Source of the DNA: Desulfobacteraceae bacterium
GTDB taxonomy: Bacteria > Desulfobacterota > Desulfobacteria > Desulfobacterales > JALSRD01
Assembly (NCBI GenBank): GCA_027061725.1
Contig: JAMOVG010000241.1
Coordinates: forward strand, 1 to 37,097
Reading direction: 5' to 3'
Length of the DNA stretch: 37,097 nt
This document shows positions 25,768-32,123 of the stretch, one piece after another. The position numbers and the translations under genes are program-made. The notes beneath the pieces are model-generated. The model did no database searches, was not told the origin of the DNA, and saw only the letters and a program-made list of their open reading frames with translations. Position 1 is the first letter of the stretch. Every line of letters begins with the position of its first letter.

Positions 25768-26220
25768 TTACTGCTTTACCAGGAATATCGAGCAGGGCAT
25801 CTTTCGCACCAGGCGTTGGTTTTCGTGGTCGAAGAGGAACTTCTCCACGCGCCCCTCTTCGTGGGCCACCATGATCGCAAGATCGATTTTCTCCCTCTTC
25901 ACCAGTTTAATCACTTCGTTGGTCATGGCCCCCTCGGTGACCAGTTCGGTCACCTTGACGGGATTGTTGAGATCCTGTTGCTCCTCGATCATGCGGTCCA
26001 GTTTTTTGCGGGTCTTTTCGGCCATCAGGCGATACTCTTCCTGGATGGTTCCCAGGGGAATGCACAGGTTCCAGCCGGCCATGCTGAAAGGGTCGGTGAA
26101 AATATGGGCCACGTATAACTCGGCACCCAGCATTCGCGACAGGTCCAGGCCGTATTGAATCGCCTTGTGACAATGGGCCGTGCTTCTGCTGATGACCAGA
26201 ATGCGTTTGATGTCTTTCAT
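25768..26220 (-). CDS. Universal stress protein (UspA family)
   Basis: A 150-residue single-domain Usp: beta-alpha start MKDIKRILVISRS, then the closing strand SIFLVK. The ATP-binding pattern Gx2Gx9G(S/T) of the nucleotide-binding class is lost: the region reads VAHEEGRVEKFLFDHENQRL. It is therefore probably of the non-ATP-binding UspA type. GGAGA precedes its ATG at 26220. A sigma-54 promoter about 90 bp upstream with paired upstream sites suggests control by the NtrC-type regulator encoded at 28070-29437. Confidence 0.9.
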   Translation of the reverse strand: MKDIKRILVISRSTAHCHKAIQYGLDLSRMLGAELYVAHIFTDPFSMAGWNLCIPLGTIQEEYRLMAEKTRKKLDRMIEEQQDLNNPVKVTELVTEGAMTNEVIKLVKREKIDLAIMVAHEEGRVEKFLFDHENQRLVRKMPCSIFLVKQ

Positions 26221-26320: not shown

Positions 26321-26336
26321 AGCATAAGCCGTGCCA
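26321..26336 (-). promoter_or_regulatory. Sigma-54 (-24/-12) promoter for the Usp gene
   Basis: On the minus strand the sequence is TGGCAC-GGCTT-ATGCT, against the consensus TGGCAC-N5-TTGCW. The invariant GG and GC are exactly 10 bases apart and only one other position differs. It points at the Usp gene, with a predicted start near 26310 and a leader of about 90 bases. An NtrC-type activator is encoded about 1.7 kb away. Confidence 0.7.
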
Positions 26337-26609: not shown

Positions 26610-28088
26610 GTGAGAATTGCAACCCGTTTCATGGGGGTCGTTTTTCTGGGAATGCTGCTGCTGCTGACGCTGGATGCCTACCTGTCCGTGCGCCGGGACA
26701 TCTCCCTTTTTGAAAACACCATGCGGCGCAACGGGCTGCTGTTTGGCCGCACCGTGCGTGAGGCCGTGCAGGACGCCTGGCGGCGCGACGGCATGCAGGC
26801 GGCCCTGGCCTTCGTGCGCCGCGTCGGTCGGCAGCCCGACCACATGCGCATCCGCTGGGTGCGCCTGGACGCACCGCCTGGGGATCCGCAAGCCCCCCGG
26901 GTGCCCCCACAAAAGCGGATCTCTGCAACAAAAGGGCAGCCCTTTTCGGTCCGTTGGGAAAACGGCGGAAAGAGCGGCCTGCTGGTGACCTATGTCCCGC
27001 TGGCGGTCCCCGGCGCACCTTCCTGCGCGCTGGAGGTCTCCCAGTCGCTTTCCGGGCTGTACGCCTACATCCGCACGCGGGTGCTGCGGTCGGTCTTTCT
27101 GGTCCTCCTGCTGGCGGCCTTCAGCGGCGTGATGCTGTGGGTGTTCGGCCGCAGGGTCCTCGGGCGGCCCCTGGACGCACTGGTAGCCAAAACCCGTCGC
27201 ATCGGGGCGGGGGATTTTTCCGGCCCGCTGCACTTTCACGGCCACAACGAACTGGCCACCTTGGCCGAGGCCACCAACGAAATGTGCCGCCAGCTGGCCC
27301 GCACGCGTGACGAGCTGCGCGGGGAAACCGAGGCCCGCATCCAGGCCATAGAGCAGCTGCGTCACTCCGATCGCCTGGCCACCCTGGGACGGCTGTCGTC
27401 GGGCATTGCCCACGAACTGGGGACACCGCTCAACGTGGTGTCCGGCCGGGCCCGCATGATCGCCTCCGGAACCCTGTCAACGGAGGAAATGCAGGAAAGC
27501 GCCCGCATCATCGACGACCAGGCCCGGCGCATGACGGCGCTTATCCGCCAGCTGCTGGACTTCGCCCGGCGCAGGCCGCCCAATAAGACCTGCGTCGACT
27601 TGAAGCGCCTGGCCGAACAGGTGCTTCAAGTGCTCGACACGGAGGCGACCCGCAAGAAAGTCCGGCTGGTGTTTCAGCCGGCCAGGGACAATCCCAAGGT
27701 GCGCGTCGACGCTTTTCAGATACAGCAGGTGCTCACCAATCTGGTGGTCAACGCCATCCAGGCCTCTTCCGAGGGCGGCGCGGTTGACGTCCGGGTGAAG
27801 CCGCAGACGCCTCCTTCGAAGGGCGGACCGTCGGAGGTCCGTCGGTACATGACCCTGCAGGTGGAGGACCAGGGAGGGGGCATTTCTCCCGAGGACCTGA
27901 AAAACATCTTCGAGCCTTTTTTTACCACCAAGAAAGCCGGGCACGGAACGGGACTGGGCCTGTCCATCGCCCAGGGCATCGTGGAAGAACACGGTGGCTG
28001 GATCGGTGTCGACAGCCAGCCCGGGCAGGGCACCTGTTTCACGGTCTGGCTGCCAGTGGAGGAAACCCCATGCACGGAAGCGTCCTGA
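26610..28088 (+). CDS. Membrane sensor histidine kinase for the sigma-54 regulator
   Basis: A 492-residue kinase with membrane segments at about 5-24 and 160-179, a periplasmic sensor region of about 130 residues of no recognised family, a HAMP linker (about 180-235), and HisKA with H268 in GIAHELGTPLNVV. ATPase motifs include NLVVNAIQAS, DQGGGIS and GTGLGLSIAQGIV. The architecture is that of ZraS/AtoS-like kinases. It starts with GTG (an ATG seven codons later is possible) and has a weak ribosome binding site. It overlaps its regulator gene by 19 bp. Confidence 0.9.
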   Translation: MRIATRFMGVVFLGMLLLLTLDAYLSVRRDISLFENTMRRNGLLFGRTVREAVQDAWRRDGMQAALAFVRRVGRQPDHMRIRWVRLDAPPGDPQAPRVPPQKRISATKGQPFSVRWENGGKSGLLVTYVPLAVPGAPSCALEVSQSLSGLYAYIRTRVLRSVFLVLLLAAFSGVMLWVFGRRVLGRPLDALVAKTRRIGAGDFSGPLHFHGHNELATLAEATNEMCRQLARTRDELRGETEARIQAIEQLRHSDRLATLGRLSSGIAHELGTPLNVVSGRARMIASGTLSTEEMQESARIIDDQARRMTALIRQLLDFARRRPPNKTCVDLKRLAEQVLQVLDTEATRKKVRLVFQPARDNPKVRVDAFQIQQVLTNLVVNAIQASSEGGAVDVRVKPQTPPSKGGPSEVRRYMTLQVEDQGGGISPEDLKNIFEPFFTTKKAGHGTGLGLSIAQGIVEEHGGWIGVDSQPGQGTCFTVWLPVEETPCTEAS

Positions 28089-29437
28089 TCGTCGACGACG
28101 ACGAGAGCATGTGCCAGATGCTGGAAATGGACCTGCGGCAACGTGGGTTCGAGCCGAAGTGGTGCCTGTCGGCTGACGAAGCCTTGGCCCTGCTGGAAAA
28201 CGATGTTTTCGACGTCATGCTGACCGATCTGAAACTGCGGGGAATGAGCGGCATCGAACTGTGCCGCCGCATGGCCGAGAAGCGGCCGGATATGCCCACC
28301 ATCGTCATCACGGCCTTCGGCAGCATGGAAACCGCCATCGAGGCCATGCGCGCCGGCGCCTTCGATTTCGTCACCAAGCCCATCGACACCGACTTCCTGG
28401 CGCTGGCCCTGCAGCGGGCCGTCCGCCACCACGACCTTCAGGAAAAGGTGCGCCTGCTGAGCATCCGTTCCCGGCAGGTGAAGGCCTTCGACGACCTGCT
28501 GGGCGAATCCGACGAGATGAAGACGCTGTACGGCGAAATCGACCGAGTGGCAGACATCGACGCCGCCATCCTGATCACCGGCGAAACCGGCACCGGAAAA
28601 GAACTGGTGGCCCGGGCGCTTCACAACCGCGGCCACCGCAAATCGGGGCCCTTCGTGACCGTCAACTGCGCGGCGCTGCCGGCCAACCTGATCGAAAGCG
28701 AGCTTTTCGGGCACGTCAAGGGCGCTTTCACCGACGCCAAGGCATCCCATAAAGGGCTCTTTCTGCAGGCCGACGGCGGGACTCTCTTTCTGGACGAAGT
28801 CGGCGATTTCCCCCTGGACCTGCAGGGCAAGCTGCTGCGGGTGCTGGAGGACGGGTCGGTGCGGCCCGTAGGCGCGGATTACCAGACCGAATTCGACGTG
28901 CGCATCATCGCCGCCACCCATCGCGATCTGGAGACCGCCGTGCGCAAAGAGCGCTTCCGGGAGGACCTTTACTTCCGGCTTAACGTCATCCAGCTGGAAC
29001 TTCCGCCTCTGCGCGACCGCGGCACCGACATCCTGCTGCTGGCCCAGCATTTCGTGGAGCATTTTGCCATGCGCTTCAACAAACATGTCACCGGCATCAC
29101 CCGCTCGGCCGCCGACAAGCTGCTCTGCTACCGCTGGCCGGGCAATGTGCGCGAGCTCAAGCACTGCATCGAGCGGGCCGTGGCGCTCACCCGCTACGAC
29201 AAGATCGCCGTGGAAGACCTGACCCCCAGGGTGGCCGCCAGCGACAAGACCAATATCCTAATCCCGGACGACTTTTTCAGCGATCTGCCGCCGCTCGGTG
29301 AGGTGGAGCGGCGCTACATCCTGCACGTGCTCGAGGCCACCGGCAACAACCGTACCAAGGCCGCCCGCATCCTGGGGCTGGACCGTAAGACCCTCTACCG
29401 CAAGCTGCAGGAATACCGGCCCAAGGAAAACGCCTGA
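28070..29437 (+). CDS. NtrC-family sigma-54 response regulator
   Basis: 455 residues in three domains. The receiver (about 3-120) has D10/D11, phospho-acceptor D53 and K103. The AAA+ domain (about 140-375) has Walker A GETGTGKE at 171-178, the sigma-54 contact loop GAFTDA at 218-223 and Walker B GTLFLDE at 237-243. A Fis-type helix-turn-helix closes it (ATGNNRTKAARILGLDRKTLYRKL). The contact loop differs from GAFTGA by one residue, but the key T and F are kept. It is co-transcribed with the kinase. Its gene lies between two sigma-54 promoters, which are its likely targets. Confidence 0.93.
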   Translation: MHGSVLIVDDDESMCQMLEMDLRQRGFEPKWCLSADEALALLENDVFDVMLTDLKLRGMSGIELCRRMAEKRPDMPTIVITAFGSMETAIEAMRAGAFDFVTKPIDTDFLALALQRAVRHHDLQEKVRLLSIRSRQVKAFDDLLGESDEMKTLYGEIDRVADIDAAILITGETGTGKELVARALHNRGHRKSGPFVTVNCAALPANLIESELFGHVKGAFTDAKASHKGLFLQADGGTLFLDEVGDFPLDLQGKLLRVLEDGSVRPVGADYQTEFDVRIIAATHRDLETAVRKERFREDLYFRLNVIQLELPPLRDRGTDILLLAQHFVEHFAMRFNKHVTGITRSAADKLLCYRWPGNVRELKHCIERAVALTRYDKIAVEDLTPRVAASDKTNILIPDDFFSDLPPLGEVERRYILHVLEATGNNRTKAARILGLDRKTLYRKLQEYRPKENA

Positions 29438-29454
29438 ACCATCGCCGGCCGGAC

Positions 29455-29487
29455 GAGGCATTCTGCCGGGACGGGGCAAAATGCCTC
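29455..29487. promoter_or_regulatory. Paired GGCA-N3-TGCC sites upstream of the hibernation-factor operon
   Basis: GAGGCATTCTGCC (29455-29467) and GGCAAAATGCCTC (29475-29487) are near-perfect inverted copies of one 13-mer, each containing GGCA-N3-TGCC. Their centres are 18 bp apart. They lie at about -186 and -168 from the predicted start of the sigma-54 promoter at 29622. As RNA the pair could also fold into a hairpin after the activator gene, but no U tail follows. Confidence 0.6.
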
Positions 29488-29621
29488 GCCGCGACATTGC
29501 CCTCCAATCGGCTGCAGCTCTCCCTACTTCCGTTCCGGCACCCATCATCCAACACACCAACTATCCGTTTTTACTTAGTTTCGCTTCTATCGTGGAGAAC
29601 CCCTTTAATTTCCCAAATAAC

Positions 29622-29637
29622 TGGCACACCTTTTGCT
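29622..29637 (+). promoter_or_regulatory. Sigma-54 (-24/-12) promoter for the REC-HPF gene
   Basis: TGGCAC-ACCTT-TTGCT matches the sigma-54 consensus at every conserved position, with GG and GC 10 bases apart. The predicted start is near 29648, about 60 bp before the gene at 29710. It probably drives that gene and the HtrA protease gene after it. Confidence 0.85.
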
Positions 29638-29709
29638 GGTTTGCACCGGCAGACATTTGCCACAATCCGAGCAGACGGCGTGACAGCGACTCCGCCGGGG
29701 AGGTCGTCT

Positions 29710-30576
29710 ATGGGAGAGAAGACGAGACACGGAACAAACGGAAAGGGGAAACAGCGGACATCCGATGGACAGCACACATTCCGTGTCCTGCTGGCTGACG
29801 ATGACCTTGAGTTTCGCAAAATGGTGGCTTGGTACCTGCGCAGGGAAGGCTTCGAGGTGGTCGAGTGCGCAGACGGATACTGCCTGGAGAAGCACATGGG
29901 GCTCACGGACCTGCCGGACCCCGCCGACCGCTTCGACGTGGTGGTGGCCGACAACCGCATGCCCGGTCCCAGCGGTCTGCAGGTGCTTGGAGCCGCCGCA
30001 CGTTATGAATGCGGGGTTCCATTCATCCTGGTGACGGCCTTCGCCGACGAAAAAACCACCGCCGAAGCCAGGCGCCTGGGGGCCGCCCAGGTGATGTCCA
30101 AGCCCTTCGATATCGAGGATCTGATCGAGGAGGTGTGCCAGATTGCCCCCATCAGCCTGTTCGTCAGCACCCCGGTGTCCTTCCTGGAGGAGGACGCCGG
30201 GGGAACGCCGGGCTTCACCCTCGACATCTCCTACCGGCACCACCACGGGTCCGGGTACATTGCCACCGTCATTCGGCACTACGCCGCCAAGCTCAACCCG
30301 CTGGCCAGGCACATTGACCTCTGCCGGGTGGTCGTCGAATGCCTGGGGCGATCCAGGCAGCCCACCACCCGTTACCGGGTGTGCATTCACCTGGCTACCC
30401 AGGTGGGCCCCGTGGTTGTGGAGCATGACTCCGATATGGGCGCCAGCTTCGAAAACCTGTACCTGGCCATCAAAAGGGCCTTTACCGCTGCCGGCCGGCG
30501 CCTGGAACACGAACTGGGTAAGCACCAGCATCATGATCACCACAGAACGCACCGCAAACCGGCGCTCGGTATATAG
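29710..30576 (+). CDS. Response regulator fused to HPF/RaiA-like ribosome hibernation domain
   Basis: 288 residues. After a short basic start comes a complete receiver domain (about 23-145): D30-D32, phospho-acceptor D81 (VVVADNRMP), T109 and K131. A linker leads to a domain at about 168-270 whose pattern follows the HPF/RaiA (S30EA) family: LDISYRHHHGS, a long first helix, CRVVVECLGRS, YRVCIHLA, PVVVEHD, then ENLYLAIKRAFTAAGRRLE. The tail is histidine-rich (272-281). GGGGAGG at 29697-29703 sets the start at 29710; the frame is open back to 29497. The HPF part should bind the 30S decoding region and silence ribosomes, perhaps switched by phosphorylation. The fold call is from pattern only. 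Confidence 0.8.
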   Translation: MGEKTRHGTNGKGKQRTSDGQHTFRVLLADDDLEFRKMVAWYLRREGFEVVECADGYCLEKHMGLTDLPDPADRFDVVVADNRMPGPSGLQVLGAAARYECGVPFILVTAFADEKTTAEARRLGAAQVMSKPFDIEDLIEEVCQIAPISLFVSTPVSFLEEDAGGTPGFTLDISYRHHHGSGYIATVIRHYAAKLNPLARHIDLCRVVVECLGRSRQPTTRYRVCIHLATQVGPVVVEHDSDMGASFENLYLAIKRAFTAAGRRLEHELGKHQHHDHHRTHRKPALGI

Positions 30577-30635
30577 GCCGCTGTCGCCACAGGCGGTGCC
30601 CAACACCAAAATACAGGAACAAAGGAGAAGGCAAA

Positions 30636-32123
<1,488 letters not shown>

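Follow-up and report, generated by a model that had tools for sequence, protein, structure and literature searches.

Could a sensor kinase reach the ribosome through a response regulator that carries a ribosome hibernation factor as its output domain? Hibernation factors are usually described as being controlled by the amount made. The question is raised by one gene on contig JAMOVG010000241.1 of a Desulfobacteraceae bacterium (GCA_027061725.1), of which we analyzed positions 1-37,097 of the forward strand (the window, 37,097 nucleotides). A first-pass annotation had read this gene as a complete receiver followed by an HPF/RaiA domain at residues 165-275. The gene and its parts are as follows.

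29697..29703, + strand: Shine-Dalgarno-like GGGGAGG, 6 bases 5' of the ATG at 29710 (from the sequence)
29710..30576, + strand: receiver-HPF fusion gene, 288 aa (open frame; PF00072 and PF02482 matches; full-length relative P0002)
29785..30135, + strand: receiver (REC) domain, residues 26-142 (PF00072; beta-alpha fold in the full-length model)
30145..30213, + strand: inter-domain linker, residues ~146-168 (low pLDDT in part; aligned in both fusions)
30214..30546, + strand: HPF/RaiA (S30AE) domain, residues ~169-279 (PF02482, PDB profile and fold)
30523..30552, + strand: HQHHDHHRTH, His-rich tail at the C-terminal end of the HPF domain (from the sequence)

The fusion is one open frame, running from the ATG to a stop codon ending at 30576. 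In a Pfam scan, residues 26-142 matched PF00072 with an E value of 1.4e-18, and the residues of phosphorylation are all present (acidic pair D31/D32, D81, T109, and K131), so that the receiver is indeed complete. Three residues before K131, the usual aromatic switch residue is absent and a valine is found (V128; residues 128-131 lie at 30091-30102); the related single-domain receivers also mostly lack it. Residues 149-160 of the linker had a pLDDT below 50 in the full-length model, whose pTM of 0.55 does not allow the mutual placement of receiver and HPF domain to be read. The Pfam scan gave no match to a C-terminal cold-shock domain, the protein stopping about 10 residues past the HPF helix, nor did it find the C-terminal dimerization domain of long HPF. 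No CBS module was detected at the N terminus, where the receiver lies instead.

We then asked whether the C-terminal domain belongs to the HPF family. Searched with PF02482 (Ribosomal_S30AE), the whole protein gave an E value of 0.003 (18.7 bits) and the C-terminal domain alone 4.1e-4 (21.4 bits), slightly under the Pfam cutoff of 23.7 bits. The family match that the first-pass annotation had named as a check fell short for the window copy, but it was obtained with the HPF part of a second fusion protein, P0002, which scored 33.5 bits. The NCBIfam yfiA model responded weakly to the fusion (E value of 0.0068), and a search of PDB sequences with the single domain returned a sole match, the ribosome hibernation factor 9t0z (E value of 0.0017). 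Every one of the 22 aligned domains matched PF02482, the best with an E value of 1.7e-23. The profile derived from these 22 domains recovered 31 PDB sequences at E values of at most 0.001, nearly all of them named as HPF, RaiA, or protein Y types; Coxiella HPFcold ranked first (7.7e-35), followed by HPF, RaiA, YfiA, and plastid pY.

The structural evidence points the same way. Modeled with AlphaFold2 (mean pLDDT of 81), the domain has the topology beta-alpha-beta-beta-beta-alpha. Foldseek placed HPF/RaiA structures in its top 32 rows with a probability of 1.00, and VIA-align placed them in its top 33 rows with Z scores of 15.2 to 8.6, the first unrelated fold following at 8.1. The structural similarity on which the annotation had made its reading depend was therefore found, so that the outcome it had named as refuting did not occur. 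Its residue range is off by no more than a few residues, the domain spanning about 169-279. When 291 genomes of the order were searched with the domain, 30 had a match; these relatives look like HPF proteins, and in many of them an extra C-terminal part was recognized by eye as being of the cold-shock type. Among stand-alone proteins, those nearest to the fusion's domain are short HPF and HPFcold-type proteins from the same order and phylum. Profile, fold, and relatives together confirm that the C-terminal domain is an HPF/RaiA domain.

P0002 is encoded in genome G259, which belongs to another family of the order, and it has the same architecture as the window fusion. The two proteins share 38-40% identity over receiver and HPF domain, their linkers can also be aligned, and P0002 retains the equivalents of D31/D32, D81, T109, and K131, so that all catalytic receiver residues are found in both. 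The His-rich tail, possibly metal-binding, is missing from P0002. To count such fusions, as had been suggested, we searched samples of 291-389 genomes from the order and 395 from the phylum, together with the 24 genomes of the G259 family and the 2 of the window's family (the samples overlap). HPF-domain matches were examined for a receiver encoded in frame with them. Of the several hundred genomes of the phylum, two carried a fusion. No third fusion was found in the sampled genomes, although copies with very different receivers or in other phyla could escape this search, and the one other genome sampled from the window's genus and family had none. A widespread REC-HPF family is thus ruled out in the order, phylum, and family samples. 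A scan of genome contigs matched only the receiver part. On another contig, the genome of the window encodes a separate canonical HPF (G000:C248) adjoining an rpoN-like gene; because of this, the fusion is an addition and not a replacement. The canonical protein belongs to the same family, PF02482, but unlike the fusion it is free-standing and has no receiver.

Does the fused domain still bind ribosomes? It is basic (pI of 9.8, net charge of +7), while the receiver part is acidic (-7). At positions conserved in at least 90% of the domain alignment, the window copy keeps 8 of 9 residues and has S for T at the ninth. Among the 14 columns that are basic in at least 60% of the relatives, it has K or R at 7: R176, position 189 in the first helix, K194, R206, R263, K271, and R279. 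R176, K194, R206, R263, K271, and R279 are kept as basic positions in both fusions. Two others have been lost in both, namely position 191 (Y191 in the window, M in P0002), basic in 18 of 19 stand-alone relatives, and position 225 (C225 and T), basic in 17 of 19. We looked in PMC5620043 for the rRNA-contact residues of HPF and did not find them there. The fusion pair also sits on a long stem in the HPF-domain tree, and ribosome binding may thus have changed. From the sequence, we consider it likely that the domain binds the ribosome, perhaps in a weakened or altered manner. A weaker intrinsic affinity tipped by the receiver would fit a switch, and a loss of ribosome binding would fit as well.

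The latter corresponds to the strongest of the alternatives, in which the HPF domain has been repurposed, keeping its fold but giving up the ribosome to serve as a dimerization, RNA-binding, or protein-binding output. The long stem, the two near-invariant basic residues lost in both copies, and the score of the window copy below the Pfam cutoff all favor this, and HPF proteins can bind other partners, as reported for S. aureus HPF and YwlG (PMC9522360). However, the retention of 8 of the 9 highly conserved positions and of six conserved basic positions common to both fusions argues against it, as does the G259 copy, which passes PF02482. We regard repurposing as unlikely, though it deserves to be taken seriously.

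The surroundings of the gene bear on how a ribosome-binding output would be controlled. The following features flank it.

26610..28088, + strand: sensor histidine kinase, HAMP-HisKA-HATPase (Pfam)
28070..29437, + strand: NtrC-family response regulator, REC - sigma-54 activator - Fis HTH (Pfam)
29622..29636, + strand: sigma-54 -24/-12 promoter-like site TGGCACACCTTTTGC, located 73 bases 5' of the ATG (pattern match)
30636..32123, + strand: DegP/HtrA-type protease with two PDZ domains (Pfam Trypsin_2, PDZ_2)

A histidine kinase, an NtrC-type sigma-54 activator, a single-domain receiver, and a DegP-type protease form a recurring locus in the phylum, for which we know of no name. The four genes were found in G052, G522, G567, and G715, as read from the sequence with a Pfam check for some members; the corresponding stretch of the window is 26610-32123. 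G379 has the kinase, the NtrC regulator, and the single-domain receiver and lacks degP; in G055 (L081:5315-6397), a YfdX-like gene, just below the Pfam cutoff, occupies the degP position. The single-domain receivers of this locus finish after the last receiver helix and carry no HPF domain. In the window, the locus receiver is fused to HPF, while G259 has a single-domain receiver and the receiver-HPF protein in tandem, upstream of degP. The best other matches to the fused receiver are single-domain receivers with 35-43% identity at this same locus position. Trees group the two fusions as a clade by their HPF domains (support of 97/96) and, with moderate support (80/91), as sisters by their receivers. 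Taken with the shared locus, a single fusion event is the simplest explanation, and a single origin is well supported for the HPF part and moderately for the receiver part.

The gap that separates the fusion from the activator gene contains the site TGGCACACCTTTTGC. Nowhere else in the window is the -24/-12 sigma-54 pattern matched exactly, and none of 500 shuffled versions of this intergenic region reached such a match. In the same gap, good sigma-54 sites are present in G259, G379, and G715 and weaker ones or none in G052, G522, and G567. A promoter-like site of this kind next to a sigma-54 activator gene points to regulated synthesis of the fusion. The proposal of the first-pass annotation that a kinase would switch ribosome silencing directly is plausible, but its addition that no new transcription would be needed gives only half of the picture, synthesis probably being controlled too. 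Control at this locus is most likely twofold, with synthesis governed through sigma-54 and activity through phosphorylation. A one-mismatch sigma-54-like site was also seen at 26322-26336 on the - strand; the gene downstream of it, which diverges from the kinase gene, encodes a universal stress protein (25768-26220, - strand). One-mismatch matches are expected by chance. The main text of a D. vulgaris sigma-54 regulome paper mentions neither DegP nor a hibernation factor.

The promoter-like site also favors a second alternative, in which the output does bind ribosomes but is not gated by phosphorylation. Sigma-54 transcription would then be the sole control, and the receiver, descended from the single-domain receiver of the locus, would act as a phosphate sink or be a bystander. 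In most genomes, the receiver at this position has no output domain, so its original role needs no HPF. Nevertheless, both fusions have retained all of the phosphorylation residues, and G259 keeps a single-domain receiver beside the fused one, consistent with a distinct role for the latter. We consider this reading improbable. As to an artifact, either an assembly or frame error merging two genes or a chance likeness of the C terminus to HPF, the division of the genome into 410 contigs and the Pfam score below the cutoff speak for it, but the independent fusion in G259, at the same locus of another genome and with an alignable linker, rules out the former, and profile, fold (Z score of up to 15), and that second fusion rule out the latter, leaving this explanation a negligible chance. 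The architecture is thus confirmed as real and rare, and it lies within a coherent signaling locus.

Fusions of HPF domains have been described before, so that the statement that these factors are normally free-standing holds with a qualifier. HPFcold (Coxiella CBU_0020; ribosome-bound in PDB 9T0Z), an HPF domain joined to a cold-shock domain, sits in the tRNA cleft of the 30S subunit, and HPF-SigE is cited as another fusion (PMC13392368). HPFcold has the same fold as our domain and is its nearest PDB sequence, but it has no receiver, whereas our protein has an N-terminal receiver and no cold-shock domain. In archaea, a CBS-HPF fusion named HibA acts as a hibernation factor; its CBS module binds AMP, ADP, and ATP, AMP best, and nucleotides hardly changed the ribosome states (PMC13324472). 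Similarly to the present fusion, HibA combines an N-terminal module of an often-regulatory kind with a C-terminal HPF/RaiA domain; it differs in being archaeal and in having a nucleotide-binding CBS module where our protein has a two-component receiver. Response regulators with non-DNA-binding outputs likewise join a receiver to an effector domain. Our search of the open-access literature, which is weak evidence of absence, found neither an HPF output among response regulators nor a description of a receiver-HPF protein, and the main text of a survey of response-regulator domains (PMC4558063) does not mention ribosomal outputs. The fusion is an extension of two known kinds of protein, the HPF fusions and the response regulators with unusual outputs.

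We propose the following scheme. The adjoining kinase and NtrC-type regulator would sense a stress, probably related to the envelope, and the regulator, through sigma-54, would turn on the receiver-HPF gene and probably degP, which may be cotranscribed with it. The same kinase would phosphorylate D81 of the fusion, and this would alter, in one direction or the other, the access of the HPF domain to the tRNA/mRNA cleft of the 30S subunit. Translation would then be damped while damaged envelope proteins are removed. That the protein is a response regulator with an HPF/RaiA output, induced through sigma-54, phosphorylated by the kinase, and damping translation during envelope-protein clearance is a view to which we give even weight for and against. 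Counting against it are the two lost basic residues and the long stem, the missing aromatic switch residue, the pTM of the full-length model, and the occurrence of the fusion in just two genomes. The more specific claim that the histidine kinase directly and reversibly gates hibernation, by phosphorylating the receiver fused to HPF in a stress locus that makes DegP, we put forward tentatively, with somewhat less than even confidence.

Overall, the fusion suggests a direct route by which a sensor kinase could silence translation. If so, it would connect an environmental sensor to the ribosome directly, rapidly, and reversibly, as a two-component output with the ribosome itself as its target, and a single aspartate would offer a simple experimental on/off handle for hibernation. 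A two-component member would then join the growing set of HPF fusions formed by HPFcold, HPF-SigE, and HibA.
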